DNA from: Phorcus lineatus
Taxonomy: Eukaryota; Mollusca; Gastropoda; Trochida; Trochidae
Assembly: GCA_921293015.1 (NCBI GenBank)
Contig: OV121095.1
Span: forward strand, 40,149,484-40,213,483
Direction: 5' to 3'
DNA: 64,000 bases
Position 1 is the first letter of the stretch; every line of letters begins with the position of its first letter. This document shows, piece after piece, positions 784-33,916 of the stretch. The translations under genes and the position numbers were made by a program. The notes below the pieces were generated by a model. The model had not been told where the DNA came from. It did no database searches and saw nothing but the letters and a program-made list of their open reading frames with translations.

Positions 784-1443
784 TCATGGAAGAGGGGGAG
801 ACTCGGTAGTAGGAGCAGCGGTAACAACCGTTGTAGGAGCAGCGGTAACAACCGTTGTAGGAGCAGCGGTAACAACCGTTGTAGGAGCTGCGGTAACAAC
901 CGTTGTAGGAGCAGCGGTAACAACCGTGGTAGGAACATCGGTGATAACCGTAGTAGGAACATCGTTAACCATCGTCGGAAACAGAGGAGTTGTAGGCGGC
1001 ACGGTTACAGCCTCTGTTGTGCCTCCAGTTTGTGTCGTTGCATCCACCCTTTGTTCCCCGCGGAGGTTAGCAAGCCGGCCCATGCATGCCCGAAGGAACT
1101 CTTGCTGCCTGTAAGCATTGTAGTAGAGGTTTACAACACGGACTTCCATTTTGTGCATGGGCATGCGTTTCTCGACGTGTCTCTCGTCCAACTCGAGCCC
1201 TCGCGTATCTTGACAATTCTGCTGTGAGTTTACAAACTCTTGTTCCTCGTTGAGACAGTCGGTGGTGTTCTGTATGAGTCCAACAAGGATCTGCTCGAGC
1301 GAGTAGTAAACGGCTTGTAGGTTATGGCGGAGTAGATGTATGGGCATTGTTGGCGGGAGAATCGTTTCACTGTCAACCGGCACCACACAGGCACCAAAGA
1401 TACACGCTGCAACAGCAAAGAGCTTCATCTCTAGAGTGTTCAT
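784..1443 (-). CDS. Member 1: secreted two-helix, dibasic-site, Thr-tail protein
   Basis: This 219-residue protein is not one I recognise. The first ATG of the predicted transcript is at 1443; a second in-frame ATG at 1428 starts the hydrophobic core MKLFAVAACIFG, and both give a signal peptide ending near residue 25. Helix A (about 40-63) has NLQAVYY and ends at Cys63, next to an NTT glycosylation sequon. An acidic/basic linker contains Cys77 and EKR at 91-93. Helix B (about 100-125) contains Cys120. The C-terminal part is tandem 8-residue PTTVVTAA units (24 bp each), mucin-like, ending ESPPLP. The same order of parts occurs in members 2 to 5. Inferred role: a secreted, possibly two-chain, O-glycosylated protein of unknown function. 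No intron is needed to read it. Confidence 0.85.
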   Translation of the reverse strand: MNTLEMKLFAVAACIFGACVVPVDSETILPPTMPIHLLRHNLQAVYYSLEQILVGLIQNTTDCLNEEQEFVNSQQNCQDTRGLELDERHVEKRMPMHKMEVRVVNLYYNAYRQQEFLRACMGRLANLRGEQRVDATTQTGGTTEAVTVPPTTPLFPTMVNDVPTTVITDVPTTVVTAAPTTVVTAAPTTVVTAAPTTVVTAAPTTVVTAAPTTESPPLP

Positions 1444-1606
1444 CCCTGGCTCTGGTGTCAACCCTAATAGGTGTCTAAATTTGTCAGGGAGGTCCGTGTT
1501 TTGTATGATACTGAACGTCTGGACGGCCTTTAGACAGATTTGAAACCTAAGTTCAGTTTGCTGTACACCAGGGCTGCAGTATGATTGTTGCCTTGGCCCC
1601 TTTCCT

Positions 1607-1612
1607 TTTATA
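1607..1612 (-). promoter_or_regulatory. TATA box of member 1 with adjacent CRE-like site
   Basis: TATAAAAGG on the minus strand, about 165 bp before the ATG, implies a 5' UTR of about 135 nt with no upstream ATG. Immediately upstream lies TCACGTCA, one base from a palindromic cAMP-response element. Both are identical in the duplicate (10593-10598). Confidence 0.6.
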
Positions 1613-2188
1613 TTGACGTGAATGGTGTTAATACACTGTGATATAGGTACAATGTAATTAATAAATAGATAAAATGAAATTAATCCTTAATAGTTTGACG
1701 AAAGTTGTAATCTAGTCATTATGACTGAAATGTTCTACTCAAGTATTGGTTGTAATCATCATGATGAGTAAGATATTAGTTGGAACGATGTACTGTTATC
1801 AGATGGACGGAACATTAACCATGCTGTGTCTTATACCTGAACTGGTATTTGATAAAACTGTCCATGTATGAGAACGGTAATAATATAGGTGATGTATATC
1901 TCTTGTGAAATACTTTTCGAATAATTTCCATATGCATTGGCTTGATATTTATTATTGTCTTTTTTATATATTCTTTATCAGAATCAGTGTTCATTTATAC
2001 TGATAACATATATCACAATTTCATTACGAGGAAAACTAAGGCTACTAAATATTGAAATAAAACATATGTTAATCCCGGCTATGGACATACAGTTTTTGAT
2101 TGAGTTATATGCTTTAATGAATTCTAAATGCCAGCAACTAAAATGGATCTGCGGTGTACTGTTTGCCTTCTGCTGGATTTTGTGTCAA

Positions 2189-2856
2189 GTCTGCCGGTCT
2201 CTATGTTCGTCAGTCTCTATGTTTGTCAGTCTCTATGTTTGTCAGTCTCTATGTCTTCCAGTCTCTATGTCTGCCAGTGTCCATGTCTGCCAGTGTTTAT
2301 GTCTGTCAGTCTTTATGTCTGTCAGTCACTATGTCTGTCAGTCTCTATGTCTGTCACGCTCTATGTCTGCCAGTGTCTATGTCTGTCAGTCTCTATGTTT
2401 GTCAGTCTCTATGTTTGTCAGTCTCTATGTCTTCCAGTCTCTATGTCTGCCAGTGTCCATGTCTGCCAGTCTCTATGTCTGTCAGTCACTATGTCTGTCA
2501 GTCTCTATGTCTGTCAGTCTCTATGTCTGCCAGTGTCTATGTCTGTCAGTCTCTATGTTTGTCAGTCTCTATGTCTTCCATTCTCTATGTCTGCCAGTGT
2601 CCATGTCTGCCAGTCTCTTTGTCTTCCAGTGCCCATGTCTGCCAGTCTCTATGTCTGTCAGTCTCTATGTCTGTCAGTCTCAATGTCTGTCTGTCTCCAT
2701 GTCTGTCAGTCTCTATGTCTGTCTGTCTCCATGTCTGTCAGTCTCTACGTCTGTCAATCTCTATGTCTGCCAGTCTCTATTTCTGCCAGTCTCTATGTAT
2801 GCCAGTCTCTATGTCTGCCAGTCTCCATGTCTGTCAGTCTCTATGTTTGTTAGTCA
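2189..2856. repeat. 16-bp minisatellite, about 42 units
   Basis: Tandem units of the type tctctatgtctgtcag with scattered changes (tttgtcag, ctgccag, cttccag). Since 16 is not a multiple of 3, each forward frame reads the unit with a 16-residue period (SLYVCQSLCLPVSMSV type), and all three plus-strand frames stay open for more than 230 codons. The longest frame begins only at a TTG at 1955, with no signal peptide and no splice evidence, so I do not call it a gene. The reverse strand has a stop in every unit. Confidence 0.95.
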
Positions 2857-5800
2857 CACTTTCTATCTGAAAGTCTGCATTTTTTCATTCAATCTGCCAA
2901 TTAATGATATTACATGTAACCTATATTTTAATAATCGTTTTCCTTACTGAAACATAAATATTCAAATATCGAAATATATTTTGATATGTGTTAAATGTGT
3001 TTCTGATAATAAGTTAACTGTTGTGGAAATCAATGACTAATAGTTTAAACCTTGTGGGTAGTTTTGATAGATGTTGTTGAAGGAATTTATATGAAATTTC
3101 ACTTTCAATAGTAACAAATAGTATTCAAATGTAAAAGTTTAACAAAGATCTCTTAAGTCAACATAACTCTTTCTTTCTGACATATTCGTACTCAAAGCCT
3201 TGTTCATATGCTAAATATTGGGGTTTACAAAATTTCTGATATTTATGATTAATCGGCATTAACCAGAAGTGTTAAACTCTTTCTGTTTGCGGTTGTTGAA
3301 TGGTAATGAAGACCCAAACTTTTACAAACGCAACTATTTATCATATTTAACTTAAGTTATTAGCTGTTTACAGCGAATTCTCTTATCGTATACCGATTTC
3401 AGAGAAGGAAGATCTTTTAAGGCTGGGGGTTTTTTTAAGCAGAGAAACGCATCAGGGAGAAATTAGGAGAAAAATCCAGTCTGTTTTTTTATTTTGGGGT
3501 TTTATGTCGTGCATTTTTCACCCCTATATTTTATTTCAAACCGAGCTTGCGAGGATTGAAATGTTTATTTAGGGGTGAAAAAGGTCGAACCAGTACAGAC
3601 CAGTTCCACTTGCTTGCGAAACTACGGTACAGTTCCATTTTCAAAGAACACGCTTTAATAAAAAAAAAGATAAAAAAATAAATAAACAAACAGGTTTATA
3701 AAAATAGAACCCCTTAAGTATTTATTTCGTTGACGATAATATCAACAAAAGACAGATTGTTTATCCCGTCAGAGATACGTTTTCACGTAAATTATACAAA
3801 GGTCACCTATCATCCCTACAATACCGATAAGGACTGACCCAATCAAGGGATGTTACTCTTAAAGTAGTTGTTCACTGCTAGCGCTAACTCCTCACGCACC
3901 AAGTAAACTGATTGAATGAACGATCAAGAAAGCTGTTTAGTTTGTAATGGTTGAATACACTGTCTGGAAATTCACTTATGAATGAGAGGGAAGGGAAAAG
4001 TTTGTAAAGTTGACGAATAACGTACGTCTCATCTGTTCACTTGACGAATCGCTATTGTCGCGCGTTACGGTAGGAAGCGAGCTCGGTTTGAAATTAAAGT
4101 TAGTGATAAAACAATAAACTACTTCGACAAATAATAACCGAAGAATGGATTTATCTTATAAATTACTTAAAAAATACGTTATTTTCAATGTTTTTATAGA
4201 ATTGTTTTAAAATTAATTTTGCAGTTGTCTGTAAGGCGATGAAAACAGTAAGTTTAGCGAATGGAGTTTGTAAACGTGCGCGTATGAATGTGAATCGGTC
4301 GTAAATATTTAGAGGTAATTATCAGCGAAATAATCACTCCATAATTGATTTTGGCAACCAATCAGAAAGCAGTATATTCATTCTAGTTCTCATATCATGT
4401 TAGAATATTGGTTTGACCATTAACTCATTTTCATTAGAATATATCATTATTGTAACATGCCAGTCTTTATTTTAATATATTAAGTTGTATCAGAAGAGCA
4501 TTATTGCATCTTCCAACACATTCCAATTTTGTAACACGCGTTCAATCAACAAGTGACTAATATATGCATAGAACAAATATGAGCACAAGGAGTGATTATG
4601 TATTTGAGTACAACAATTATTCGATCTGAGAGCTTGTAGTGAAGACTTGCATGAACTGTTTTAAGCAAATAGACATTTTAGAATGAACAATACAAAAACT
4701 GAATAATTCACAGAGTTATAAAGGGCAAGGGGTTATTTTCCTGTAAACAGAAATGGAATTAAATATCATTACTTTCCTCAAGTTCTAAAAGGAATGTCAC
4801 GCTTTTGTACATCCAAGGCGAGTCCCAAATGTGCTCAAAAGTGTTAGGATCATACATGAAAGGGCGGTAGCATTGTTTCGAAAGATTTGATCTTGAATTT
4901 CCCCAAAAAGTATGAGTTCGTGTCAAAAGTATTATGTTCAGAGTGTCAAAACATCTCTACTCCCAACCCGATCATCCAAACTATAATATAAATAATTAAA
5001 TATCGAGCAAAATCCACTGGCGGCCATTTTTATGGGAACATCTTTTAATCATGTGAGGTAACGAAATGACTTCGTGTTACTTAACCGATCATGGTACATT
5101 CGTTGTCAAACAGTTTCTTTTTATAAAAACAATTCTTGTATTTGGATTATATTATTCATCTTAAAAACGTGTTAGTGGCCCTCCAAGCCTGGACGTCACA
5201 GCAATCTGGTGCATAAAGTTGTCCTCAGCTGATTGGTCTGGCTTTATCACCCAATAACATTGGCCTTAAGAACGTTTATCAAAAAGAGGAAAGACAACAG
5301 GCTACAGCATTGATTGATAAACCGTTCACTTGCTACATTCACTCATTGTTTGCATGTCGAGCTTGCATTTAAGTGAAAAGCATCCTGAAACCATTTCTTA
5401 GATTCAACCGAAAGCAAAATTGAGAAGCATTTAGTATAGCAATTGTAATTTGGCCCCTTAAAACCTCGTCCTTTATTATCCTGCATAGATAGTGGTGGCT
5501 TATATTTCATTTAAGTTGTTGATGTTTATGTTGATGAATTGACACTTTTGATTGAAATGACCGTAACTATCATCTTATTTATTACCAAAAGATAAAACTT
5601 TTAAAGCATTTCCATCTCAGTAGAAACATCTTATTGCTTCTTGCCAACAACATCTTAATATTGGAAACAAATCGACAACTGCACCTCTCCTTGCAGTCAG
5701 GAACTGACTCCATCCTCGCCTTTCTCTCTGACCCTTTGTTAGTCAGTGTACGCACAAACCCCGTTAAATCTCTTAGATCTTAACGTTCAAATGATTTAAC

Positions 5801-6357
5801 TTATGTTTGAAATATGATGGAATTATTTGGCCTTACCTCTCTCTCCCTTTCATATTGACCTCTTCCCTCTTTTACCGATTTACCAATTGATTGTTATCTT
5901 CACAAGAAGATAGTGTGGTTTTGAAAAATAAATGAATAAACACAGCTTGTAAAATGTGTATGACCACTTCCGATTAACTTTAAAACAGAATATTATAGTT
6001 TGCCATTGTAGGCACAAAGATGCACATTTAGTATGGTAACTATAACAGTTGATAAGGTATTTGGCTAATACTTTTATTTATTACCTTATTTGTTTCCGGG
6101 TAAAATCGTGGATATGTATGAAACGGAAAGAAGGATTCAAAAGAATCCACACTCTTATCAATATCATCGTGTAAACGACCAAATATAAAGACGCTTACTT
6201 TTAAAATTTCTCGCAATAATAGAAACTAAAGAATAATAGAATCTTCATCTACAAAAGAGTATAACTAATGTGTTAATCAATTTTATGTCAATAAAGTTTC
6301 CTAAAATTAATACAATGTTATGTTTAAAACAAAATCGGGGTATACAGTTATCCATAT
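2857..6357. other. Intergenic region of copy 1 with a dispersed repeat
   Basis: No coding region is seen. The part from 4647 to about 5732 is absent from copy 2. Within it, about 4970-5180 matches about 55805-56035 (shared text such as gggaacatct and catggtac), so this part contains an older dispersed repeat of unknown class. Confidence 0.5.
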
Positions 6358-6363
6358 TTTATT
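6358..6363 (-). terminator. Poly(A) signal AATAAA of member 2
   Basis: AATAAA on the minus strand about 95 nt after the stop of member 2, conserved in the duplicate at 14284-14289. Confidence 0.6.
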
Positions 6364-6457
6364 GCCAGAATTGCTCAACATGCTATAACATTTTACAATC
6401 ATATATTTCAAAATAACTTGAGAGTACGTAATCGTCCACATTGGGGAAACTCGGCAA

Positions 6458-6997
6458 TCAAGGCAACTCAGTGGCAGGGACACCCTCAGTTGTCACATCC
6501 CCAGGGGTGCTCTCCTCGGTTGTTATTGCCTCAGTGGTGCTATCCGCAGCAGTGCTGGCGCCAGTAGACTCTTCAGTCACATCCCCAGTTGTTGCTGAGG
6601 TAGACAAAACAGAGCTCTGCTGTAGAAGACGAGCAACCTCGTCAGTACATTCAATGAGCTCAATCTGTGTCTCCCGGGCGTGGCCATATAGTCGCATGAT
6701 TCTTTGACGCCACATTACAGAAGTATAAACCCCTCTCCTATCTATATCATCGCCATCCTGGAGGTCCTCCAGGCGTTCCTCGTCGTCTTCACACTGAGCC
6801 AACTGGGTTGTCAACTGGTTCGCTAAACTGGCCAGCATGAAGTAGTTTGCCTGCAAGTTGCCCGTGATGAATCTTGGAGGGATGATTCTAGGAAGAACGG
6901 GGATAGTTGAACTGCCTGGAGAGTCCCCTCCCCTTACTGTAAGAGCTGCAACCATTGCTACTGCGAGAGGGAGAAGGCTTCTCATTGTACGTGTCAT
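6458..6997 (-). CDS. Member 2: secreted two-helix, dibasic-site, Thr-tail protein
   Basis: A 179-residue protein from the ATG at 6997; a second ATG (residue 5) also works as a start. Residues 1-23 are a signal peptide (RSLLPLAVAMVAALTV). Helix A (about 46-69) reads GNLQANYFMLASL and ends at Cys69. The acidic linker has one RR site at 87-88. Helix B (about 98-126) carries Cys117. The tail from about 130 is Thr/Ser/Glu-rich, with TTE and TTEES motifs rather than the PTT repeats of member 1. The NLQANY motif and the one-Cys-per-helix layout link it to members 1, 3 and 4. It is the simplest form of the module. Function unknown; the predicted product is secreted and possibly cut at RR with the chains held by Cys69-Cys117. 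Confidence 0.85.
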   Translation of the reverse strand: MTRTMRSLLPLAVAMVAALTVRGGDSPGSSTIPVLPRIIPPRFITGNLQANYFMLASLANQLTTQLAQCEDDEERLEDLQDGDDIDRRGVYTSVMWRQRIMRLYGHARETQIELIECTDEVARLLQQSSVLSTSATTGDVTEESTGASTAADSTTEAITTEESTPGDVTTEGVPATELP

Positions 6998-7068
6998 AGA
7001 AGTCTGATTGGCTTGTGCACTAACAGTGGACGGTCTGTAGCTATGGTTAAGGTCAACCTTAGTCTCAA

Positions 7069-7076
7069 TTTAAATA
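7069..7076 (-). promoter_or_regulatory. TATA box of member 2
   Basis: TATTTAAA on the minus strand lies about 75 bp before the ATG. Just downstream, around the expected start site, is a near-perfect palindrome, taaggttgacctta. Both are kept in the duplicate (14995-15002). Confidence 0.5.
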
Positions 7077-8651
7077 CTTTCTGTACAGTAATTGAGATAC
7101 GATCAAATGAGTTTCATAATTGTATGGTGTTGTTTTATTACAGATATCCCCTCATGATAAGTTACTTCCTCTGAGTCATTGCTCCACAATACATTATAAC
7201 CTGAGATGAGTATGAATATTATGAAGATAAGATTTACGTAAAGTCTGATACATAACAATTTGTTATATCAATTTGACCAATTCCTGTCATATATTCATTT
7301 TCATCCTACCCCGTTACACATATAATGCTCATTATTATACATGATAAAAATAAATTGGAACATTAAGATATTATAATTGAATATGGTTCGTCATATTAAA
7401 AAGGATACATATCATCACGATACCTATAATACTAGATTATGAAATTATTAAATTTAGATATATATTGTCGAGTCTTCTTGTGAATCTTCAAACTAAAAGT
7501 GATGTGATTCTATATGAAGTAGCATTAAAACGCTCTTAAGTGAAATTAAATAAAACTAGTTTAAAAAATAGAGTTCGCTAGATCAAATAGTTCGGTGGTG
7601 ATATCGTCTAGCTTGAAAGTCCTCTAGTTCAACATCTTCACAATGTCACGGCCGAAACGAAAAGATATCCAACTTTTCCCGCTGGAGATATTCTATTTCG
7701 ATACATCACTTTGCCGTGTGAAGATGTTTGTTCAAAAGTACAAACCTTTAATTCTTTTAGTCCTTGTTTAAAAGATTAGTTTCTTCAATTTAAAGAAAGC
7801 AATTCTCTTGTTTAAAGATTACAGTTATAGTTATTTGATTACAAGTGATTATATGTGAAGTTTTTATTTCAAAATATGAACTACTTGAGATACAATCAAT
7901 CTAATTAAACATCATTCATTCAAAACTCAACCAATTTATTCATTACACGCTAATTTGAATTAACTATTGCCTGTTACAGCTTGATTTCTATCGAGGTCAA
8001 ATGTAAAAGGTAGAAATGAAATTAAACCGGACATCGACTATAATTAGTATTATCTTAAACTTTAACTGGCGAGTTTTACTAATGGATAATCAAGCCTTTC
8101 AGTATGGTAATAGTATTCTAGATGCCGGTCGTTTCTGAAAACACAGGTTGCTTTAGTGGTTTTGTGTGCGGTCACTTCGTGATAACTTCTTTATGTAACC
8201 CATAGCCATTTTGCTATTGAAAATACAGAGAAGGTTATGAAGTACGGTTCATACAATAACATATCATTTGTTGAAAAGTCAAAAGAACTTCTGTCAATAT
8301 TCTTGTTCCATCGATACTCACATTTTCGACCTCCGAAACAAGGTCAAATGACTCGCATCTAGATCAATTTTGGAGTTGTTTCATTATGTTTGTTAACTGC
8401 CTTAATGAAATTGTATCTACTGACAATGATATTTACTCTTCTTGTAAAAATGTTTAAACGTTTCTTGACCAAAGAGCAAGTGTCTTCACCATTAGTCTAG
8501 AAGGTACACTGAAGATCAAAAGAAAGTGATCACTTTTTAAACAATATTTATGAAACATTGATAACATTATTGTAAACACTAAACGTTACATACACAGAGA
8601 GGGCGTCAACGTTTTTTGTTTCTTTTTGAGATTGTTGAATGTTCAGATTGG
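7077..8651. other. Intergenic, no gene seen
   Basis: Upstream flank of member 2, repeated at 15003-16544. It is AT-rich with no open frame of note. The last part is where homology between the duplicates ends. Confidence 0.5.
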
Positions 8652-9013: not shown

Positions 9014-9717
9014 CGTCGTAATTAGGGATCATTTCCGATTCAAACTAAATGCCTGAGAATTTAATAGAGAGACCTAGTAGGATTTATCGATAAAATAAAC
9101 GAATTTCAGATATAATTTTTATGAGTTAGATTTCGAAGACAAGAAAGACGATAAATTACGCTTTGACACTGCTTAGTTGGATTCGTAAGTTATGAACTAT
9201 GTGGGGTGTATGATATATCTGCAGATTACGAGCTCTCAAGCTAGGAATTTTTCACCATTTTAGGACCCTGTCTTACTTATACGTATGGCAAGTGCGTATG
9301 ACCTTCGTATAGAAAAATAGAAAATGTTGTGAACGGATGCAAGTTGAAATATGAAAATATCTCTTTGATATAGTATTCATTATACGAAAACACTGACAAG
9401 ATAATTTGTAAGGAAATAATGAGTACATTGAAACCATAAGGGTGTCTTCAACGCTCGGTTATTGGCATGATTGGCATTATTTGCCTTTTACATGATTAAA
9501 ACATACTTGTGAAAAATTATTAAACGTGTCATAGAGATCGACGACCTGTCTCTGTATGTAAAGGTCATTTACAGTCAGCGATATTGAATATTTACTGTGT
9601 TCGTCATTTTAAAATGACTGTAGTTTAGCGCTATATACATGTTCTCAGTTGATATATGATTTAGAGAAAACTAAACAATATTTTCGAAAGTATTTTTATT
9701 CAAGTAATGTTTGAGAC
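9014..9717. other. Intergenic, no gene seen
   Basis: Duplicate of 1-707 with small indels, including a small insertion near 9425 and a deletion near 9615. No gene seen. Confidence 0.6.
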
Positions 9718-9723
9718 TTTATT
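9718..9723 (-). terminator. Poly(A) signal AATAAA of member 1'
   Basis: Minus-strand AATAAA at the position conserved with the signal of member 1. Confidence 0.6.
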
Positions 9724-9793
9724 TGAAAACCTAAATTTCCTTTTTCTCCCTTGATAGGCATTTATATTCTATAATCAATTAGACCGCCTCACT

Positions 9794-10429
9794 TCATGGA
9801 AGAGGGGGAGACTCAGTAGTAGGAGCAGCGGTAACAACTGTTGTAGGAGCTGCGGTAACAACCATTGTAGGAGTAGCGGTAACAACCGTTGTAGGAGCAG
9901 CTGTAACAACCGTGGTAGGAACATCGGTGATAACGGTAGTAGGAACATCGTTAACCATCGTCGGAAACAGAGGACTTGTAGGCGGCACGGTTACAGCCTC
10001 TGTTGTGCCTCCAGTTTGTGTCGTTGCATCCACCCTTTGTTCCCCGCGGAGGTTAGCAAGCCGGCCCATGCATGCCCGAAGGAACTCTTGCTGCCTGTAA
10101 GCATTGTAGTAGAGGTTTACAACACGGACTTCCATTTTGTGCATGGGCATGCGTTTCTCGACGTGTCTCTCGTCCAACTCGAGCCCTCGCGTATCTTGAC
10201 AATTCTGCTGTGAGTTTACAAACTCTTGTTCCTCGTTGAGACAGTCGGTGGTGTTCTGTATGAGTCCAACAAGGATCTGCTCGAGCGAGTAGTAAACGGC
10301 TTGTAGGTTATGGCGGAGTAGATGTATGGGCATTGTTGGCGGGAGAATCGTTTCACTGTCAACCGGCACCACACAGGCACCAAAGATACACGCTGCAACA
10401 GCAAAGAGCTTCATCTCTAGAGTGTTCAT
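9794..10429 (-). CDS. Member 1': duplicate of member 1
   Basis: A 211-residue protein from the first ATG at 10429 (second ATG at 10414). It is the same as member 1 across the signal peptide, both helices, the EKR site and the three mature cysteines. The differences lie in the tail: one PTTVVTAA unit fewer (8 residues, 24 bp), a T-to-S change in PPTTPLF, and one changed unit (TPTMVV). The open frame, TATA box and poly(A) signal are all intact, so it is probably functional. The tail differences fit slippage in a coding minisatellite. Confidence 0.85.
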   Translation of the reverse strand: MNTLEMKLFAVAACIFGACVVPVDSETILPPTMPIHLLRHNLQAVYYSLEQILVGLIQNTTDCLNEEQEFVNSQQNCQDTRGLELDERHVEKRMPMHKMEVRVVNLYYNAYRQQEFLRACMGRLANLRGEQRVDATTQTGGTTEAVTVPPTSPLFPTMVNDVPTTVITDVPTTVVTAAPTTVVTATPTMVVTAAPTTVVTAAPTTESPPLP

Positions 10430-10592
10430 CCCTGGCTCTGGTGTCAACCCTAATAGGTGTCTAAATTTGTCAGGGAGGTCCGTGTTTTGTATGATACTGA
10501 ACGTCTGGACGGCCTTTAGACAGATTTGAAACCTAAGTTCAGTTTGCTGTACACCAGGGCTGCAGTATGATTGTTGCCTTGGCCCCTTTCCT

Positions 10593-10598
10593 TTTATA
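10593..10598 (-). promoter_or_regulatory. TATA box of member 1' with adjacent CRE-like site
   Basis: TATAAAAGG with TCACGTCA directly upstream, identical to the promoter of member 1. Confidence 0.6.
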
Positions 10599-11174
10599 TT
10601 GACGTGAATGGTGTTAATACACTGTGATATAGGTACAATGTAATTAATAAATAGATAAAATGAAATTAATCCTTAATAGTTTGACGAAAGTTGTAATCTA
10701 GTCATTATGACTGAAATGTTCTTCTCAAGTATTGGTTGTAATCATCATGATGAGTAAGATATTAGTTGGAACGGTGTCCTGTTATCAGATGGACGGAACA
10801 TTAACCATGCTGTGTCTTATACCTGAACTGGTATTTGACAAAACTGTCCATGTATGAGAACGGTAATAATATAGGTGATGTATATCTCTTGTGAAATACT
10901 TTTCGAATAATTTCCATATGCATTGGCTTGATATTTATTATTGTCTTTTATATATATTCTTTATCAGAATCAGTGTTCATTTATACTGATAACATATATC
11001 ACAATTTCATTACGAGGAAAACTAAGGCTACTAAATATTGAAATAAAACATATGTTAATCCCGGCTATGGACATACAGTTTTTGATTGTGTTATATGCTT
11101 TAATGAATTCTAAATGCCAGCAACTAAAATGGATCTGCGGTGTACTGTTTGCCTTCTGCTGGATTTTGTGTCAA

Positions 11175-11855
11175 GTCTGCCGGTCTCTATGTTCGTCAGT
11201 CTCTATGTTTGTCAGTCTCTATGTTTGTCAGTCTCTATGTCTTCCAGTCTCTATGTCTGCCAGTGTCCATGTCTGCCAGTGTCTATGTCTGTCAGTCTCT
11301 ATGTCTGTCAGTCACTATGTCTGTCAGTCATTATGTCTGTCAGTCACTATGTCTTCCAGTCTCTATGTCTGTCAGTCTCTATGTCTGCCAGTGTCCATGT
11401 CTGCCAGTGTCTATGTCTGTCAGTCTCTATGTTTGTCAGTCTCTATGTCTTCCAGTTTCTATGTCTGCCAAAGTCCATGTCTGCCAGTGTCTATGTCTGT
11501 CAGTCTCTATGTTTGTCAGTCTCTATGTCTGTCAGTCTCTATGTCTGCCAGTCTCTGTCTTCCATTCTCTATGTCTGCCAGTCTCTTTGTCTTCCAGTGC
11601 CCATGTCTGCCAGTCTCTATGTCTGTCAGTCTCTATGTCTGTCAGTCTCAATGTCTGGCTGTCTCCATGTCTGTCAGTCTCTATGTCTGTCAATCTCTAT
11701 GTCTGCCAGTCTCTATTTCTGCCAGTCTCTATGTCTTACAGTCTCTATGTCTGCCAGTGTCCAATGTCTGCCAGTCTCTATGTATGCCAGTCTCCATGTC
11801 TGTCAGTCTCTATGTCTGCCAGTCTCCATGTATGTCAGTCTCTATGTCTGTTAGT
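11175..11855. repeat. 16-bp minisatellite, copy 2
   Basis: Duplicate of the 2189-2856 array with about the same number of units but a different variant order and small internal indels. Despite those indels, all three forward frames are still open over more than 230 codons. Confidence 0.95.
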
Positions 11856-14283
11856 CACACTATCTATCTGAAAGTCTGCATTTTTTCATTCAATCTGCCA
11901 ATTAATGATATTACATGTAACCTATGTTTTAATTATCGTTTTCCTTACTGAAACATAAATATTCAAATATCGAAATATATTTTGATATGTGTTAAATGTG
12001 TTTCTGATAATAAGTTAACTGTTGTGGAAATCAATGACTAATAGTTTAAACCTTGTGGGTAGTTTTGATAGATGTTGTTGAAGGAATTTATATGAAATTT
12101 CACTTTCAATAGTAACAAATAGTATTCAAATGTAAAAGTTTAACAAAGATCTCTTAAGTCAACATAACTCTTTCTTTCTGACATATTCGTACTCAAAGCC
12201 TTGTTCATATGCGAAATATTGGGGTTTACAAAATTTCTGATATTTATGATTAATCGGCATTAACCAGAAGTGTTAAACTCTTTCTGTTTGCGGTTGTTGA
12301 ATGGTAACGAAGACCCAAACTTTTACAAACGCAACTATTTATCATATTTAACTTAAGTTATTAGCTGTTTACAGCGAATTCTCTTTTCGTATACCGATTT
12401 CAGAGAAGGAAGATCTTTTATGGCTGTTTTTTTTTAAGCAGAGAAACGCATCAGGGAGAAATTAGGAGAAAAATCCAGTCTGTGTTTTTTATTTTGGGGT
12501 TTTATGTCGTGCATTTTTCACCCCTATATTTTATTTCAAACCGAGCTTGCGAGGATTGAAATGTTTATTTAGGGGTGAAAAAGGTCGAACCAGTACAGAC
12601 CAGTTCCACTTGCTTGCGAAACTACGGTACAGTTCCATTTTCAAAGAACACGCTTTAATAAAAAAAAAAGATAAAAAAATATAAACAAACAGGTTTTTAA
12701 AATAGAACCCCTTAAGTATTTATTTCGTTGACGATAATATCAACAAAAGACAGATTTTTTATCCCGTCAGAGATACGTTTTCACGTCAATTATACAAAGG
12801 TCACCTATCATCCCTACAATACCGATAAGGACTGACCCAGTCAAGGGATGTTACTCTTAAAATAGTTGTTTACTGCTAGCGCTAACTCCGCACGCAACAA
12901 GTGAACTGATTGAATGAACGATCAAGAAAGCTGTTTAGTTTGTAATGGTTGAATACACTGTCTGGAAATTCACTTATGAATGAGAGGGAAGGGAAGGGAA
13001 AAGTTTGTAAAGTTGACGAATAACGTACGTCTCATCTGTTCACTTGACGAATCGCTATTGTCGCCCGTTACGGTAGGAAGCGAGCTCGGTTTGAAATTAA
13101 AGTTAGTGATAAAACAATAAACTACTTCGACAAATAATAACCGAAGAATGGATTTATCTTATAAATTACTTAAAAAATACGTTATTTTCAATATTTTTAT
13201 AGAATTGATTTAAAATTAATTTTGCAGTTGTCTGTAAGGCGATGAAAACAGTAAGTTTAGCGAATGGAGTTTGTAAACGTGCGCGTATGAATGTGAATCG
13301 GTCGTACATATTTAGAGGTGATTATCAGCGAAATAATCACTCCATAATTGATTTTGGCAACCAATCAGAAAGCAGTTTATTCATTCTAGTTTTCATGCCA
13401 TGTTAGAATATTGGTTTGACCATTAACTCATTTTCATTAGAATATATCATTATTGTAACATGCCAGTCCTTATTTTAATATATTAAGTTGTATCAGAAGA
13501 GCATTATTGCATCTTCTCCACATTCCAACACATTCCAATTTTGTAACACGCGTTCAATCAACAAGTAACTAATATATGCATAGAACAAATATGAGCACAA
13601 GGAGTGATTATGTATTTGAGTACAACAATTATTCGATCTGAGAGCTTGTAGTGAAGCTTTGTTAGTCAGTGTACGCACAAACCCCGTTAAATCTCTTAGA
13701 TCTTAACGTTCAAATGATTTAACTTATGTTTGAAATATGATGGAATTATTTGGCCTTACCTCTCTCTCCCTTTCATATTGACCTCTTCCCCCTTTTACCG
13801 ATTTACCAATTGATTGTTATCTTCACAAGAAGATAGTGTGGTTTTGAAAAATAAATGAATAAACACAGCTTGTAAAATGTGTATGACCACTTCCGATTAA
13901 CTTTAAAACAGAATATTATAGTTTGCCATTGTAGGCACAAAGATGCACATTTAGTATGGTAACTATAACAGTTGATAAGGTATTTGGCTAATACTTTTAT
14001 TTATTACCTTATTTGTTTCCGGGTAAAATCGTGGATATGTATGAAACGGAAAGAAGGATTCAAAAGAATCCACACTCTTATCAATATCATCGTGTAAACG
14101 ACCAAATATAAAGACGCTTACGTTTAAAATTTCTCGCAATAATAGAAACTAAAGAATAATAGAATCTTCATCTACAAAAGAGGAGTATAACTAATGTGTC
14201 AATCAATTTTATGTCAATAAAGTTTCCTAAAATTAATACAATGTTATGTTTAAAACAAAATCGGGGTATACAGTTATCCATAT
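11856..14283. other. Intergenic, no gene seen
   Basis: Duplicate of the 2857-6357 region minus the 1.09-kb segment. No coding region or RNA gene recognised. Confidence 0.5.
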
Positions 14284-14289
14284 TTTATT
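14284..14289 (-). terminator. Poly(A) signal AATAAA of member 2'
   Basis: Minus-strand AATAAA about 95 nt after the stop codon, as in member 2. Confidence 0.6.
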
Positions 14290-14383
14290 GCCAGAATTGC
14301 TCAACATGCTATAACATTTTACAATCATATATTTCCAAATAACTTGAGAGTAAGTAATCGTCCACATTGGGGAAACTCGGCAA

Positions 14384-14923
14384 TCAAGGCAACTCAGTGG
14401 CAGGGACACCCTCAGTTGTCACATCCCCAGGGGTGCTCTCCTCGGTTGTTATTGCCTCAGTGGTGCTATCCGCAGCAGTGCTGGCGCCAGTAGACTCTTC
14501 AGTCACATCCCCAGTTGTTGCTGAGGTAGACAAAACAGAGCTCTGCTGTAGAAGACGAGCAACCTCGTCAGTACATTCAATGAGCTCAATCTGTGTCTCC
14601 CGGGCGTGGCCATATAGTCGCATAATTATTTGACGCCACATTACAGAAGTATAAACCCCTCTCCTATCTATATCATCGCCATCCTGGAGGTCCTCCAGGC
14701 GTTCCTCGTCGTCTTCACACTGAGCCAACTGGGTTGTCAACTGGTTCGCTAAACTGGCCAGCATGAAGTAGTTTGCCTGCAAGTTGCCCGTAATGAATCT
14801 AGGAGGGATGATTCTAGGAAGAACGGGGATAGTTGAACTGCCTGGAGAGTCCCCTCCCCTTACTGTAAGAGCTGCAACCATTGCTACTGCGAGAGGGAGA
14901 AGGCTTCTCATTGTACGTGTCAT
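14384..14923 (-). CDS. Member 2': duplicate of member 2
   Basis: A 179-residue protein that differs from member 2 by one replacement (R to I at residue 99, just before helix B) and a few silent changes. The signal peptide, Cys69, the RR site at 87-88, Cys117 and the Thr/Ser/Glu-rich tail are kept. The TATA box and poly(A) signal are also kept, so it is probably functional. The near identity shows the duplication is recent or that the copies are being homogenised. Confidence 0.85.
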   Translation of the reverse strand: MTRTMRSLLPLAVAMVAALTVRGGDSPGSSTIPVLPRIIPPRFITGNLQANYFMLASLANQLTTQLAQCEDDEERLEDLQDGDDIDRRGVYTSVMWRQIIMRLYGHARETQIELIECTDEVARLLQQSSVLSTSATTGDVTEESTGASTAADSTTEAITTEESTPGDVTTEGVPATELP

Positions 14924-14994
14924 AGAAGTCTGATTGGCTTGTGCACTAACAGTGGACGGTCTGTAGCTGTGGTTAAGGTCAACCTTAGTCTCAA

Positions 14995-15002
14995 TTTAAA
15001 TA
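14995..15002 (-). promoter_or_regulatory. TATA box of member 2'
   Basis: TATTTAAA on the minus strand, as in member 2, with the same taaggttgacctta palindrome downstream. Confidence 0.5.
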
Positions 15003-16544
15003 CTTTCTGTACAGTAATTGAGATACGATCAAATGAGTTTCATAATTGTATGGTGTTGTTTTATTACAGATATCCCCTCATGATAAGTTACTTCCTCTGA
15101 GTCATTGCTCCACAATACATTATAACCTGAGATGAGTATGAATATTATGAAGATAAGATTTACGTAAAGTCTGATACATGACAATTTGTTATATCAATTT
15201 GACCAATTCCTGTCATATATTCATTTTCATCCTACCCCGTTACACATATAATGCTCATTATAATACATAATAAAAATAAATTGGAACATTAAGATATTAT
15301 AATTGAATATGGTTCGTCATATTAAAAAGGATACATATTATCACGATACCTATCATACTAGATTATGAAATTATTAAATTTAGATATATATTGTCGAGTC
15401 TTCTTGTGAATCTTCAAACTAAAAGTGATGTGATTCTATATAAAGTAGCATTAAAGTGCTCTGAAGTGAAATTAAATAAAACTAGTTTAAAAAATACAGT
15501 TCGCTAGATCAAGAAGTTCGTGATGTTCACAATGTCACGGCCGAAACGAAAAGATATCCAACTTTTCCCGCTGGAGATATTCTATTTCGATACATCACTT
15601 TGCCGTGTGAAGATGTTTGTTCAAAAGTACAAACCTTTAATTCTTTTAGTCCTTGTTTAAAAGATTAGTTTCTTCAGTTTAAAGAAAACAATCCTTTTGT
15701 TTAAAGATTGAAGTCCTCTAGTTATTTGATTACAATCCAGATTATAAGTGAAGTTTTTATTTTAAAATATAAACTACTTGAGATACAATCAATCTAATTA
15801 AACATCATTCATTCAAAACTCAACCAATTTATTCATTACACGCTAATTTGAATTAACTATTGCCTGTTACAGCTTGATTTCTATCGAGGTCAAATGTAAA
15901 AGGTAAAAATGAAATTAAACCGGATATCGACTATAATTAGTATTATCTTAAACTTTAACTGGCGAGTTTTACTAATGGATAATCAAGCCTTTCAGTATGG
16001 TAATAGTATTCTAGATGCCGGTCGTTTCTGAAAACACAGGTTGCTTTAGTGGTTTTGTGTGCGGTCACTTCGTGATAACTTCTTTATGTAACCCATAGCC
16101 ATTTTGCTATTGCTAAAATACAGAGAAGGTTATGTAGTACGGTTCTTGCAATAAAATAGCATTTGTTGAAAAGTCAAAAGAACTTCTGTCAATATTCTTA
16201 TTCCATCGATACTCACATTTTCGACCTCCGAAACAAGGTCAAATGACTCGCATCTAGATCAATTTTTGGAGTTGTTTGATTATGTTTGTTAACTGCCTTA
16301 ATGACATTGTATCTACTGACAATGATATTTACTCTTCTTGTAAAAATGTTTAAACGTTTCTTGACCAAAGAGAAAGTGTCCTCATCATTAATCTAGAAGG
16401 TACACTGAAGATCAAAAGAAAGTTGTCTCTTTTTAAACAATATTTATGAAACATTGATAACATTATTGTAAACACTAAACGTTACATGCACAGAGAGGGT
16501 GTCAACGTTTTTTGTTTCTTTTTGAGATTGTTGAATGTTCAGAT
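15003..16544. other. Intergenic, no gene seen
   Basis: Duplicate of 7077-8651, with a loss of about 60 bp near 15520 relative to copy 1. No gene recognised. Confidence 0.5.
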
Positions 16545-20509: not shown

Positions 20510-21643
20510 CTAAGGGCTTGGTTGGGTTGCTTGAAGCTGTGCTTCACACTCTTGTAGCATGGTTTGAGCAGTAAGAGCCTTTTGGAATTCAGCCACAACC
20601 ATTACTACCATGGGTATATCATCAATATCCAGCCTTCTCCAACGTCTGCCATTAGGAAAGATTTCTCGTTTCTTTGTAATTGGGTTATTTTCAGAGTTTA
20701 TTCTGCTCTGACAGGACGCAAGACGGTTATTGATACTGGCAAGCAACTCAGATATCCGGACGTAGTTGGCTTGTAACTGTTCAGTTGTGAGGCTGTCATT
20801 TGCAAGTTCAAATGCCGTGTCTTGCGTTAGAACTTCTAACGGTGGGCCCCCAACTGTAGTTCCTTCGCGGCCAGAGATGTCAGTAGTTGTAGCAGGATTT
20901 GGAACCGTGGTCGATGCAGTGTCCGTTGTTTGTACCGTAGGTAATGATGGTACCGTTGTTGGTTGTGTTGTTGGTACCGTTGGTGGTGTTGTCGGTACCG
21001 TTGGTGGTGTTGTCGGTACCGTTAGTGGTGTTGTCGGTACCGTCAGTGGTGTTGTCGGTACCGTTGGTGGTGTTGTCGGTACCGTTAGTGGTGTTGTCGG
21101 TACCGTCAGTGGTGTTGTCGGTACCGTTGGTGGTGTTGTCGGTACTGTTGGTTCAGTCGGTTGTGTTGTTAGTACCGTTTGTTGTGTTGTTACCAGTACC
21201 GTTGTCGGTTCACTGTTTGTTGTCGTACCGTCTCGGCCTTCTACAAATGGAGTCGTAGCTTGCAGTTCTTGAACCCGAGCCTGGCATGCAAATAAGAGTT
21301 GCTGCTCTCTAAAAGCGAACTGATACACGAGATAGATATGCTGTAAGTAGTAGGAATTTTCATCCCCTCGTTTGTTGACGTTTTTCTCAGGTGCGAGGAT
21401 CTGCTGGTGGTCAGGTAAGTTTTCTCGTCGCTGGTAAGTACGTCCGAGGCGGAGCTGAGCTTCATAGTTCAAACACTGCTGCTTCTGTTGCTGGAATTGT
21501 GTGAAAAGTCCGTAGACATAGTTATAATTTGCATATAAATTCCCTTCTAAGAGGTCATCAGGTACCTCGTCGGAAAGACCTGAGGAAACATGCCTACATG
21601 CCGTGGAAAGCAGGACCAATAGACACACAACTCGGGGCTTCAT
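20510..21643 (-). CDS. Member 3: secreted double-domain two-helix protein with PT-rich linker
   Basis: A 377-residue protein in one exon, starting at the ATG at 21643 (context aaccATGaag). Signal peptide 1-22. Module 1: helix A 31-57 (EGNLYANYNYV, Cys57), a linker with RR at 72-73 and NKR at 90-92, and helix B 97-128 (Cys120). Residues 140-250 are a mucin-like linker dominated by tandem TVPTTPP/TVPTTPL units. Module 2: helix A 287-311 (LQANYVRI, Cys311), KKR at 324-326, a basic stretch RRWRR, and helix B 345-371 (Cys366, then EAQLQ). An NDS sequon lies at 282. This is a duplicated, fused version of the module seen singly in members 1, 2 and 5. The region ATTTDISGREGTTVGG and most of module 2 closely match member 4. 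Function unknown; four mature cysteines could form one A-B bond per module. Confidence 0.88.
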   Translation of the reverse strand: MKPRVVCLLVLLSTACRHVSSGLSDEVPDDLLEGNLYANYNYVYGLFTQFQQQKQQCLNYEAQLRLGRTYQRRENLPDHQQILAPEKNVNKRGDENSYYLQHIYLVYQFAFREQQLLFACQARVQELQATTPFVEGRDGTTTNSEPTTVLVTTQQTVLTTQPTEPTVPTTPPTVPTTPLTVPTTPLTVPTTPPTVPTTPLTVPTTPLTVPTTPPTVPTTPPTVPTTQPTTVPSLPTVQTTDTASTTVPNPATTTDISGREGTTVGGPPLEVLTQDTAFELANDSLTTEQLQANYVRISELLASINNRLASCQSRINSENNPITKKREIFPNGRRWRRLDIDDIPMVVMVVAEFQKALTAQTMLQECEAQLQATQPSP

Positions 21644-26468: not shown

Positions 26469-26473
<5 letters not shown>

Positions 26474-27431: not shown

Positions 27432-28388
27432 CTATGTGTTCGGTTGAACTTGTGCCTCACACTCTTGCAGATCGGCTTGTGAATAAAATGCCTTATAGAA
27501 CTCCTCCACAATGTAAATGGAAAGAGCAACGTTCGTCATTTTACCGTCTACAACGATTTCTCGCTTTTTAGTGCTTGCGTTATTTAATGCGTTCAGTCGG
27601 GTCTGGCAAGATATAAGTTTATTAATTATACGACCATATAACCCGGATATCCAGACATAGTTGGCTTCTAACTGTTCAGTTGTAAGGCTGTCATTCACAA
27701 GCTCATATACCATGTCTTGTGTCAGAACTTCTAACGGTGGACCACCAACTGTAGTTCCCTCGCGGCCAGAGATGTCAGTAGTTGTAGCAGGAGCAGAAAC
27801 AGTCACTGCAGCCTCCGTTGTAAAAGCCGTTGGCGATGTTGCCTGTACAGGTGTTGATTGCATTGTCGTTGGCGTTGTTGGTTGTACCTCGGTAGTTGCA
27901 GTTCCTGAAGTGGAACTAGCTGTCTCTGTGGATGAAGTACTAACTCTTCCAGCAATACCTGGGGTGGTAGTCTGCGATGCGCCAATACGAGCCAGACATG
28001 CCAACCATAGTTCTTGCTCAGTATAAGCAAATTGATACATGATGTAGACTTGCTGCCAGTTATGGCGGGTGTTTCGTTTTTTGTTAACATATATACTTAT
28101 CAGAGCTATAGATGCGTCTGCTTGCTGATAAGATGTGTCTCCTCTATTTTCAACGCCCCTACGTCCAACGGCAACAGTCGTCTGTCCGGCTTCGGTGGCA
28201 AGACATTCTTCCTTCTTTTGCCGGAAATACGAGAAATCGCTTCCCAGTTCTACGAGATACGCCAACACATCGCCATTGAACTTTTCCTGGGGCACGCTCG
28301 GACCAAGAAGAGGCCTTTCTCCACCAGTCAATACAATTTCAAAAGCGCTGAACGCCAGAACGATGGAGAACGCACCGTGTAGAGACAT
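27432..28388 (-). CDS. Member 4: secreted double-domain two-helix protein
   Basis: A 318-residue protein; the only ATG before the hydrophobic leader is at 28388 (an in-frame TTG lies 12 nt upstream). Signal peptide about 1-22 (FSIVLAFSAFEIVL). Module 1: helix A about 37-62 (NGDVLAYLVELGS, Cys62), a long linker with RR at 76-77 and VNKKR at 101-105 that aligns with VNKR of member 3, and helix B 111-136 (YIMYQFAYTEQE, Cys131). Thr/Ser-rich linker about 140-200, less regular than in member 3. Module 2: helix A 237-261 (LEANYVWI, Cys261), an NAS sequon at 270, KKR at 274-276, and helix B about 285-314 (Cys310). The DISGREGTTVGG region and module 2 are much closer to member 3 than module 1 is. Function unknown. 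Confidence 0.87.
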   Translation of the reverse strand: MSLHGAFSIVLAFSAFEIVLTGGERPLLGPSVPQEKFNGDVLAYLVELGSDFSYFRQKKEECLATEAGQTTVAVGRRGVENRGDTSYQQADASIALISIYVNKKRNTRHNWQQVYIMYQFAYTEQELWLACLARIGASQTTTPGIAGRVSTSSTETASSTSGTATTEVQPTTPTTMQSTPVQATSPTAFTTEAAVTVSAPATTTDISGREGTTVGGPPLEVLTQDMVYELVNDSLTTEQLEANYVWISGLYGRIINKLISCQTRLNALNNASTKKREIVVDGKMTNVALSIYIVEEFYKAFYSQADLQECEAQVQPNT

Positions 28389-28420
28389 GATGATAGGCAA
28401 TATGCATCTACAGTTACATT

Positions 28421-31008: not shown

Positions 31009-31086
31009 TCTGATTTTTGTCCAACAGGTATCGTTGATTTTATTCTACCATTGACGACGATCATTGCTTTCAAACCATCAGGCACG

Positions 31087-31413: not shown

Positions 31414-31591
31414 AGTGCACTTCAACTGTCTGTTTAAGGACCTTGGATGGGGTATTGTTGTCCTGTTCTAACTTTGTAATAAGGAAATGGCTTCTTGAGG
31501 GATGTAAGTCAGGGATGACTGGTAGAATTTGTGATTGTACGGGACTTGAGCGGTGTTCCTGGGATGTGTGGACGTGAAATCACGATGACTG

Positions 31592-31599
31592 TATTTATA
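31592..31599 (-). promoter_or_regulatory. TATA box of the small secreted peptide gene
   Basis: TATAAATA on the minus strand, about 180 bp upstream of the ATG. A 5' UTR intron cannot be excluded. Confidence 0.4.
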
Positions 31600-32834
31600 G
31601 GAGCTGTTAATGGACAACACGTCAGGCCCTATTTGTGAAAAAGATTTAAGTTTAATGTGTTCATGTGCCACAAAGCAGTCCCATGAGTAGTGTTGTGCAT
31701 ATATGTTGAAAATTGTTTATTCATGCAAACGGAAACGGTGAAATGGTAATGTTTCATTTCACTTAGGAGGGTAATTAGGATTCCACTTTTGCAGCAGATT
31801 TTTCTATGAATTCATCCATGAGTAATTTCCTTTCATGTTAAACAGATAGTTCAATCCAAACCCTACTCAGTACGTAGTCACGTTATGAGAACAGTTTATG
31901 TAACAGCTTTAAAATTCAAAACTTTTAAAAATAAACTTTTGATTAAATGAAAATGTTATTCACATAAAAACAGAAAACATTATTTGTTTATGGTACTTGT
32001 GGTCTTGTGACGTATAAAATGGGTGTTATATAAGACATATACTACTAGTTCTATGGGTGTTATATAAGACATATACTACTAGTTCTATGGGTGTTATATA
32101 AGACATATACTACTAGTTCGATCGAGTTTGAGAAATGGATACCTCGTATTGTATCCATCACAGATGATAAAGTACTGAGTACTTTTTTCCGACACTGAAA
32201 CCATATATCATGCACTGGGATGTCCTAGTGTGACATGTTAAGTTATAATAACTATTCTTGTCGTGTAGGGAACAGTAATAGTATAATTTTACTTACGTGC
32301 TACCTTATGTTATCGATGTTATGATGTGTGTCAAAATATTGATGTTTAAATAATCATACTTATTTCTGTTCCTTATGTGATGTTTATACCACTCGTTGCA
32401 TTTTTCAGAGCAAATAAACTCTCCAAGAATAGATCTTCATTTTGTGTGATATTCCGTTTTGCCGAAACGAACTAATTGTGTATAACATTCAGTCCAATCC
32501 ATTGTTATCGCAACAATACATTCGTGGAAATTGTTCGAAACATACTATCATCAATTCAAATCAAATTAATGAACTCAAATTGTCCCAATATCTCCCTCAT
32601 GACACAGTTCGATATCATCGTTATTACGTTGATAACCTGATCAAATCTTACCAAAATTGAGTCTCACACAATATATTTGGAGATAACCACGATTTTCTTC
32701 ACGAATCGTTATGTTCATCTCATACCATAATCATCGAACATATAACAATATTCTTTTCAAACAACTGAAATAGGATTCAAGCTGATTAATGTTCAAATCA
32801 GATTTTTAATTAACCTAGTAACCCAATCAAAAGG
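31600..32834. other. Intergenic between divergent genes
   Basis: Separates the small minus-strand gene from plus-strand member 5. Apart from the 34-bp triplication at 32020 I see nothing coding. Confidence 0.5.
32020..32121. repeat. 34-bp tandem repeat, 3 copies
   Basis: The units, which include gggtgttatataagacat and actactagttc, are repeated three times without interruption. Confidence 0.92.
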
Positions 32835-32840
32835 TATAAA
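32835..32840 (+). promoter_or_regulatory. TATA box of member 5
   Basis: ggTATAAAAAGG, 68 bp before the ATG; the predicted 5' UTR is about 38 nt. Confidence 0.55.
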
Positions 32841-32902
32841 AAGGTCCTCCGCAAATCAAGTAAGGATATACGTCTGTTATAAAGAATTAAGAGAATTACG
32901 AG

Positions 32903-33916
32903 ATGAAGTTGTTACCAGTTCTGGCTCTCTGTGGGTTAGTTTGCCTCTTAGAGGTGGGTTCCGTGCCCTCAGAGAAAGGTCGGGTTTTCGAGAAGCGAGG
33001 GGGAGGAGGGAACTATAATCAAAACTACCTGTACCAATACTACCGATATCTATACGGTGAGTATGACCGGCTGTTAGGCATATTTAATTCCTGTAACAGA
33101 CAGCTTGGAAATTTGAGGAACAATCGACCTTTTCCAAATTTCAACTGGGGAGATGACAATCGTGATGATAAGAGGGATGTCGAGACTTTGGAAGATGAAA
33201 GGAAAGACCTGTATTCTGATGTAAAGCGTGATAATATGGGGAAGAAAACTCTTCAAGACTTAGAGCAGGGAATCGATTCGCTTGTGAATCGCGAAGATAA
33301 AATAGATGTTGAAAGAAATCTGGCGGATGGAGATTTAGTTGCCAAACATGATTTCGATGAAAGAGACGCTATGAGAGAACTGGAAGAGAATGGTTACGCG
33401 AGGAAGCGTGGTTATGCGTTCAGCCACGATGCCTACACCCTCTGGTACTACATCAATTACTACGAGTACCATCTTCAACTGATAACAAATCAATGGCAGC
33501 AATGTCAGCAGGAGTTGTCCCGCTTGATAGGGGTCACCACACCGTCCCCAACAGCAACACCTACTCCGAATGCTGCAACATCAGGTGCTCCGACAATACA
33601 ACCAAGAGTCTCAACAACTCCTGGGCAAACAACATATATCCCAACTACTCCCCAAGCCACAACTCTCGCACCAACTCCAGCAGCAACGACTCCCGAAGTA
33701 ACGACTGTACCTACAACTCCACAGCCAACAACCGTGCCTACAACTCCCCGAGCAACAACTCAACCAACAAGTCCAGCGCCAACGACGATACCAACAACTC
33801 CTCAAGCAACAAGCGCTGCCCCAACAACGACCACACCAGCTGATTCTAAGAGCCAGACCTGCGACCTGTGCGGCGAGGACTTCTCCACGCAGGGTCGTAA
33901 AAGACAAATAAGATAA
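32903..33916 (+). CDS. Member 5: secreted polybasic two-helix protein with CxxC tail
   Basis: A 337-residue protein in one exon. Signal peptide 1-20 (KLLPVLALCGLVCLLEVGS), then a short propeptide ending EKR at 30-32, followed by GGGG. Helix A (about 39-72) is Tyr-rich (YLYQYYRYLYGEY) and contains Cys64. The linker (75-168) is long and highly charged, with KR or KK sites at 90-91, 108-109, 114-115 and RKR at 167-169. Helix B (about 170-210) is again Tyr-rich (WYYINYYEYH) with Cys201. Residues 211-312 are a Pro/Thr mucin-like tail (PTTP, TTPQATT). Unlike the other members it ends in a separate piece with CDLC (Cys320, Cys323) and GRKR at 331-334, which resembles an amidation-plus-cleavage signal. 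The layout fits the family, but sequence similarity in the helices is weak. Function unknown. Confidence 0.87.
   Translation: MKLLPVLALCGLVCLLEVGSVPSEKGRVFEKRGGGGNYNQNYLYQYYRYLYGEYDRLLGIFNSCNRQLGNLRNNRPFPNFNWGDDNRDDKRDVETLEDERKDLYSDVKRDNMGKKTLQDLEQGIDSLVNREDKIDVERNLADGDLVAKHDFDERDAMRELEENGYARKRGYAFSHDAYTLWYYINYYEYHLQLITNQWQQCQQELSRLIGVTTPSPTATPTPNAATSGAPTIQPRVSTTPGQTTYIPTTPQATTLAPTPAATTPEVTTVPTTPQPTTVPTTPRATTQPTSPAPTTIPTTPQATSAAPTTTTPADSKSQTCDLCGEDFSTQGRKRQIR

Follow-up and report, generated by a model that had tools for sequence, protein, structure and literature searches.

The question raised by this locus is whether a group of neighbouring genes in the gastropod Phorcus lineatus belongs to one family of secreted proteins and, if so, what kind of protein that family makes. 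We analyzed a 64-kb stretch of contig OV121095.1 (assembly GCA_921293015.1; C32:40149484-40213483), referred to here as the window, and positions given below are those of the window unless another piece of the genome is named. Phorcus lineatus is a vetigastropod topshell, with which two blocks of eight hemocyanin units on C12 (16 matches) agree; the one unit compared had its best match in PDB 3j32, an abalone hemocyanin. A preliminary description drawn from the letters of this DNA had proposed a clustered, undescribed family of two-helix proteins with signal peptides, dibasic sites and Thr/Pro-rich tails. The open reading frame (ORF) list of the window contained seven intact ORFs at the positions it had listed, each running from ATG to stop without interruption, which bears out the single-exon appearance that it had reported. 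These were named A (at 784 and 9794), B (6458 and 14384), C (20510), D (27432) and E (32903). We found that the modules of A, B, C and D form one homologous family, and our tentative reading, to which we give somewhat less than an even chance, is that a module would be cut into two helical chains joined by a single disulfide, forming a head on an O-glycosylated tail.

Family membership was assessed on seven distinct modules (A, B, C1, C2, D1, D2 and E), with the duplicates of genes A and B and a fragment termed E2 left out. Each module was compared with a profile of the others, close paralogues being withheld jointly, and E-values refer to one comparison. All six core modules, from A to D2, were recovered (E-values from 2.3e-5 for D1 to 7.6e-19 for A), and none of 1,922-1,998 shuffles matched their scores. 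A gap-free comparison anchored on the Cys residues also supported the core modules, the weakest being helix A of D1 (P = 0.047). Identity among the tandem paralogues was ~19-34%, except for C2 and D2 (54%). The recurring helix motifs of the preliminary description were recovered as conserved positions relative to the Cys: in helix A, Leu at -21 (5/6 core modules), Ala at -19 (6/6), Asn at -18 (4/6) and Tyr at -17 (5/6), and in helix B, each in 6/6, [IV] at -17, [YF] at -13, Ala at -10, Gln at -6, [LW] at -3 and [VIL] at +4. Both Cys were present in all seven modules, E included. The idea that the two helices are mutual copies was rejected, with helix-B halves scoring at shuffle level against the helix-A profile in 3/6 modules and giving weak signals in B, C2 and D2 (10/225, 0/231 and 8/255 shuffles as good). 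The family and its architecture are well supported.

The architecture differed among genes, in a way that the preliminary description had missed: C and D carry two modules each, with the Thr/Pro stretch between them. Gene A, copy 1 (784..1443, minus strand; 219 amino acids), has a signal-like start, one two-helix module (1051..1365, minus; residues 27-131, Cys 63 and 120) and a Thr-rich tail; a third Cys, at 77, lies in the loop, and the dibasic KR occupies residues 92-93 (nucleotides 1165-1170, minus). Copy 2 (9794..10429, minus; 211 amino acids) has the same module and a tail shorter by 24 nucleotides. Gene B, copy 1 (6458..6997, minus; 179 amino acids), combines a signal-like start, one module (6599-6895, minus; RR at residues 87-88, nucleotides 6734-6739) and a tail rich in Thr, Ser and Glu, and copy 2 (14384..14923, minus) is also 179 amino acids long. 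Gene C (20510..21643, minus; 377 amino acids) has, after its signal-like start, module C1 (21245..21574, minus; residues 24-133, Cys 57 and 120, RR 72, KR 91), a Thr/Pro-rich linker (20825..21244, minus; residues 134-273) and module C2 (20513..20824, minus; residues 274-377, Cys 311 and 366, [KR]R at 325, 333 and 336). Gene D (27432..28388, minus; 318 amino acids) repeats this plan, with a signal-like start, module D1 (27963..28319, minus; residues 24-142, Cys 62 and 131, RR 76, KR 104), a Thr-rich linker and module D2 (27435..27719, minus; residues 224-318, Cys 261 and 310, KR 275). The core profile detected both modules in each of these genes, the second reaching the stop codon with no tail behind it. 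Since one module lies on either side, the Thr/Pro stretch is a linker in C and D, and the tail that had been described for the whole set holds for A, B and E.

Gene E (32903..33916, plus; 337 amino acids) had been counted in the same family, which the profile comparison did not sustain. It has a long loop between two candidate helices, a Thr/Pro tail and an extra C-terminal Cys pair, and its candidate module spans 33002..33544 (plus; residues 34-214, Cys 64 and 201, KR 90, 108 and 168). Against the core profile it reached an E-value of 0.029, with 485/1,951 shuffles equally good, that is, no detectable homology; its halves (358/1,943 and 361/1,973) and a version with the insert omitted (70/1,964) were likewise matched by shuffles. 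When aligned on the Cys without gaps, helix A fitted (P = 0.007, 5,000 shuffles) and helix B gave a weak signal (P = 0.073). An AlphaFold2-type model was poor (mean predicted local distance difference test score (pLDDT) 45.6, predicted template modelling score (pTM) 0.40), its terminal helices, 5-39 and 142-176, carrying Cys 31 and 168 placed as in the family; a fold search with it returned 43 matches (best E-value 1.5), uninformative at that model confidence. On the profile test we did not accept gene E as a proven member. It stays a candidate, either a distant relative or a look-alike, because the profile test is at shuffle level while the Cys-anchored helix A fits. At its end (about 33842-33913), after the Thr/Pro tail, gene E has a short Cys-x-x-Cys (Cys 320 and 323) that is not in the other genes.

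Features expected of secreted proteins were then examined. A hydrophobic N-terminal stretch was present in 7/7 genes (best 11-residue mean 2.37-3.07), and no membrane-like stretch followed further on in any of them (best 19-residue mean 0.24-1.28). In a screen with a von Heijne matrix, signal-peptide scores were 7.67 for C, 6.96 for E and 3.94 for B, the usual cut-off being 3.5. Thr made up 27-37% of the tails and linkers, which are 51-142 residues long. Secreted proteins of a mucin-like kind, in which small folded heads are present, are known; the cluster resembles them in that its Thr/Pro-rich stretches adjoin a small domain, and differs in that the head is a two-helix module with no catalogued family, the Pfam matches of the five gene types including no von Willebrand or cystine-knot type. 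The Pfam Mucin model matched A alone, with an E-value of 0.45, below its cut-off. The genes had also been called TATA-driven, which applies to part of the set: a strict TATAWAW lay within 300 bp of the ATG in 5/7 genes (-169 in A and its second copy, -39/-37 in C, -38 in D, -68 in E) and was absent over that distance from both copies of B. The chance of such a match in one 80-bp stretch here is 0.08, so that the motifs at -169 mean little.

The claim that the family is undescribed agreed with every search made, in that members were not split among known families. Genome searches, which read this one genome frame by frame and scored the best candidates only, used C, E, B, C1, C2, D1 and A as queries (D2 was not a query) and found no modules outside the cluster beyond one chance-level match to C1 (C41:7321959, E-value 6.0), although such searches may overlook relatives that are distant or split. 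Four matches of gene C elsewhere (E-values 8.4e-4 to 6.4e-3) were rejected, since they arose only through query residues 154-237, in the Thr/Pro stretch. A profile search over the window and 200 kb upstream (6,228 frames) returned six ORFs, then a short frame at 30194-30361 (minus) with an E-value of 0.014, and the rest at 0.55 or above. That frame has a weak helix-B-like match (E-value 0.31 with the helix-B profile) and could be a decayed family member, or chance. In Pfam, the five gene types gave nothing above cut-offs, the reverse-transcriptase ORF at 37465 being the only one of 8 proteins scanned to pass, and the seven modules gave nothing above cut-offs either, with five families each matching 1/7 members (best E-value 0.015). 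Searches of PDB sequences gave one match for C (E-value 0.21) and four for the family profile (best 0.54), none supportive. With the C1 model, Foldseek listed 12 PDB chains, none under an E-value of 5.4, at root-mean-square deviations (rmsd) of 20-24 Å; no family rose above chance, and this excludes nothing. Six family peptide strings occurred in no paper in a main-text search, and no paper on the family was found among those listed. The family is best explained as an orphan, lineage-restricted set of secreted precursors.

The cluster has been enlarged by a tandem duplication of A and B that is real and recent, in line with the earlier view of clustered, duplicating genes. Unit 1 (1..8648) contains a segment, 4649-5733, without counterpart in unit 2 (9014..16544), which holds the second copies of both genes. 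Three blocks were aligned: 1-4648 with 9014-13659 (94.6%), 5734-7594 with 13657-15520 (98.7%) and 7634-8648 with 15523-16544 (96.2%). Between the A copies there are 8 substitutions, 5 of them synonymous, which all fall at or beyond nucleotide 455, and 24 gap columns in the tail; the B copies show 4 nucleotide changes (3 synonymous, 1 not). Over the two recent pairs, synonymous changes thus outnumber non-synonymous ones 8 to 4, and the first 454 nucleotides of A carry no change. Upstream of A the copies show 1 difference in 300 bp. Among the older paralogues, C2 and D2 gave synonymous (dS) and non-synonymous (dN) divergences of 1.20 and 0.33 (dN/dS 0.28), and module 1 of C and D was saturated (dS 2.3, dN 0.70). 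The linker beside module 2 (20825-20900 in C and 27720-27800 in D, minus) had dS 0.30 and dN 0.05; the gap between a dS of 0.30 there and 1.20 in the module suggests partial gene conversion of the C/D linker.

These rates bear on the possibility that the genes are fast-evolving reproductive proteins of sperm, egg coat or gland, whose heads would mediate gamete or mating interactions. The likeness is to the abalone acrosomal proteins lysin and sp18, which are likewise secreted, helical vetigastropod proteins encoded by tandem paralogues, sp18 keeping one Cys pair in a disulfide (PMC9022041). A tandem, diverging, secreted and helical set would fit this comparison. The lysin gene is multi-exon, with exons 1-5 named in the same account (PMC9022041), whereas each cluster gene is one ATG-to-stop ORF with dibasic loops and a Thr-rich tail, so that exon plan and tails are unlike lysin as described there. 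Pairwise counts showed no positive selection, the dN/dS of C2 and D2 being 0.28, and no egg-lysin/sp18 family was among the Pfam matches of gene types and modules. We regard a reproductive role of this type as improbable.

We next considered the dibasic sites, which carry the proposal that the product consists of two chains. A lone Cys per helix with a dibasic site between had been described, and this arrangement was present in all seven modules (2-3 Cys per module), with the exception that module A has its third Cys in the loop. The joint chance of [KR]R between the two Cys, computed by shuffling the inter-Cys stretch, was 0.0097 for the six core modules and 0.0088 for seven. Every dibasic site of the four distinct core proteins lay between a Cys pair (A 1/1, B 1/1, C 5/5, D 3/3; 10/10 together), as did 3/5 in gene E. 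The last site preceded the helix-B Cys by 26, 28, 27, 28, 25, 33 (D2) and 31 (E) residues. On this basis we infer that the loops may be cleaved at the dibasic sites.

Insulin and relaxin precursors have a signal peptide, two helical chains with dibasic sites between them, and Cys links between the chains. The cluster resembles them in its signal-like start, its two predicted helical chains, the dibasic sites between and the expected Cys link, and the insulin comparison made earlier is fair in this sense of two chains worked from one precursor; it fails as a statement of membership. The modules could belong to a two-chain signalling ligand with a disposable or carrier tail, for which the precursor plan speaks, as do the sites of gene E (residues 90-91 and 168-169) that bound a long connecting piece. 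The cluster differs, however, in having one Cys per chain rather than the insulin pattern, a mucin-like tail or linker, and two modules in C and D. No insulin family appeared among Pfam matches up to an E-value of 1 for the five gene types or 10 for the seven modules. Long Thr-rich stretches and paralogues at ~19-34% identity (C2-D2 apart) are more like exocrine proteins, and we consider a signalling ligand quite improbable.

The two-helix module itself was recovered by structure prediction. AlphaFold2 modelled C1 as two long helices (13-46 and 72-107; mid-helix pLDDT block means 92-96, pTM 0.64) joined by a disordered loop (residues 46-69, pLDDT <50), with RR and KR in the loop or at its start; the helices carry Cys 34 and Cys 97. 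Counted from the Cys, helix A has a hydrophobic heptad pattern at -21, -17, -14, -10 and -7 and helix B at -17, -13, -10, -3 and +4, in 6/6 core modules each, along with the invariant Gln at -6. Helix pairing was assessed with a coarse two-helix packing model in which windows were anchored on the Cys and the Cys was given zero weight. The best parallel register of the pooled profile placed the Cys Cb atoms 4.7-5.3 Å apart, and 56/2,000 permuted profiles reached 5.5 Å or less. By module, the parallel distance was 5.3-5.5 Å in A, B, C1 and E and 8.0-8.6 Å in C2, D1 and D2.

Several observations weigh against a cleaved, parallel, two-chain head. Antiparallel packing scored as high or slightly higher (parallel versus antiparallel 21.67 vs 22.46 in one run; 21.2 vs 21.8 with the pooled profile in another) and was higher in C2, D1 and D2; the parallel Cys distance was 5.5 Å or less in just 3/6 core modules (A, B and C1), and anchoring the windows on the Cys favours the parallel register. 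In the antiparallel register the Cys stood 20-21 Å apart, and because of this distance within one module the invariant Cys of such hairpins would bond between molecules. The modules may thus be antiparallel hairpins, uncut or incidentally cut, whose end Cys join two molecules into a covalent four-helix dimer. The packing scores and the Cys separation favour this arrangement, which would leave the dibasic site in every loop without a role, and the AlphaFold2 model fits no PDB antiparallel hairpin under 20 Å rmsd; we hold it to be unlikely, though far from negligible. Superposing an ideal parallel pair on an antiparallel hairpin gave 20.6 Å, and the agreement of the Foldseek values with this figure suggests no more than that the C1 model is not an antiparallel hairpin, its arrangement being presumably parallel, although an L shape gave a similar 19.5 Å and Foldseek rmsds are unreliable at E-values of at least 5. 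The C1 model rests on 7 sequences, and a dibasic pair arises by chance in a single loop commonly (0.20-0.64 per core module). The signal peptides, which the hydrophobic starts support in 7/7 genes, are likely rather than shown for A and D, because their matrix scores (2.21 and 2.56) fall below the cut-off. Gene conversion could imitate purifying selection in the recent pairs, because their low divergence extends to the flanks. Finally, the evidence consists of gene sequences and predicted structures.

Other features of the locus were recorded alongside the family. E2 (38620..39255, plus) is a 636-bp internal piece of gene E (33094-33746) with 3 mismatches from its source, inserted with a 59-bp direct repeat on either side (38566-38624 and 39276-39334, 95% alike). 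As a gene (the copy at 38679) it was rejected, being a truncated fragment with no signal-like start, and it is probably dead. Directly upstream lies a retroelement piece, an ORF at 37465-38373 (plus) with a zf-RVT match (E-value 1.4e-7). Each duplication unit contains one array of 16-bp tandem repeats (2093-2870 and about 11050-11950), which creates long spurious plus-strand open frames in which Cys, Leu, Ser and Val abound. Between D and E, a 68-residue ORF (31210-31413, minus) that begins with a strongly hydrophobic stretch and contains two RR sites resembles a small peptide precursor; it matched no Pfam family and is single copy in the genome. Two 375-residue frames upstream of the cluster, L030 7911-9035 (minus) and L032 2043-3167 (minus), are fucosyltransferase-like (O-FucT E-values 7e-6 and 0.025, below curated cut-offs).

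For the favoured cleaved, single-disulfide head, we infer the disulfide, cleavage, glycosylation, oligomer, parallel pairing, tissue and use from the features above. The module would consist of two long amphipathic helices with one invariant Cys each, and the disordered loop between them would hold a dibasic site. In the secretory pathway the helices would pair and the two Cys would form one disulfide, after which a proprotein convertase would cut the loop, leaving a head in which a disulfide joins chains A and B, borne on a Thr/Pro tail that is O-glycosylated. With both modules cut, C and D would each yield a dumbbell of three pieces, in which two disulfides hold A1 and B2 to a middle piece comprising B1, the linker and A2. 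The likeliest use would be in an exocrine secretion (mucus, or fluid of a gland or the reproductive tract), where the heads would associate, the glycosylated stretches would keep them hydrated and spaced, and C and D would serve as bivalent cross-linkers. It is possible, if rather doubtful, that the cluster represents a new class of secreted two-chain proteins with a parallel helix pair, a single disulfide and dibasic release, in which the mucin stretch serves as a tail (A, B and perhaps E) or as a spacer (C and D) that gives a three-piece, two-headed cross-linker.

Orphan secreted families are common in animals, and one more would by itself be unsurprising. The modest size and completeness of the cluster make direct tests feasible. 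If the processing is real, the precursor would be a very simple blueprint, found in nature, for a helical head of two chains and one disulfide, and also for a self-assembling, two-headed mucin cross-linker. In that case it would help to explain the secretions of snails and the way in which new families of secreted proteins originate and expand through tandem duplication.

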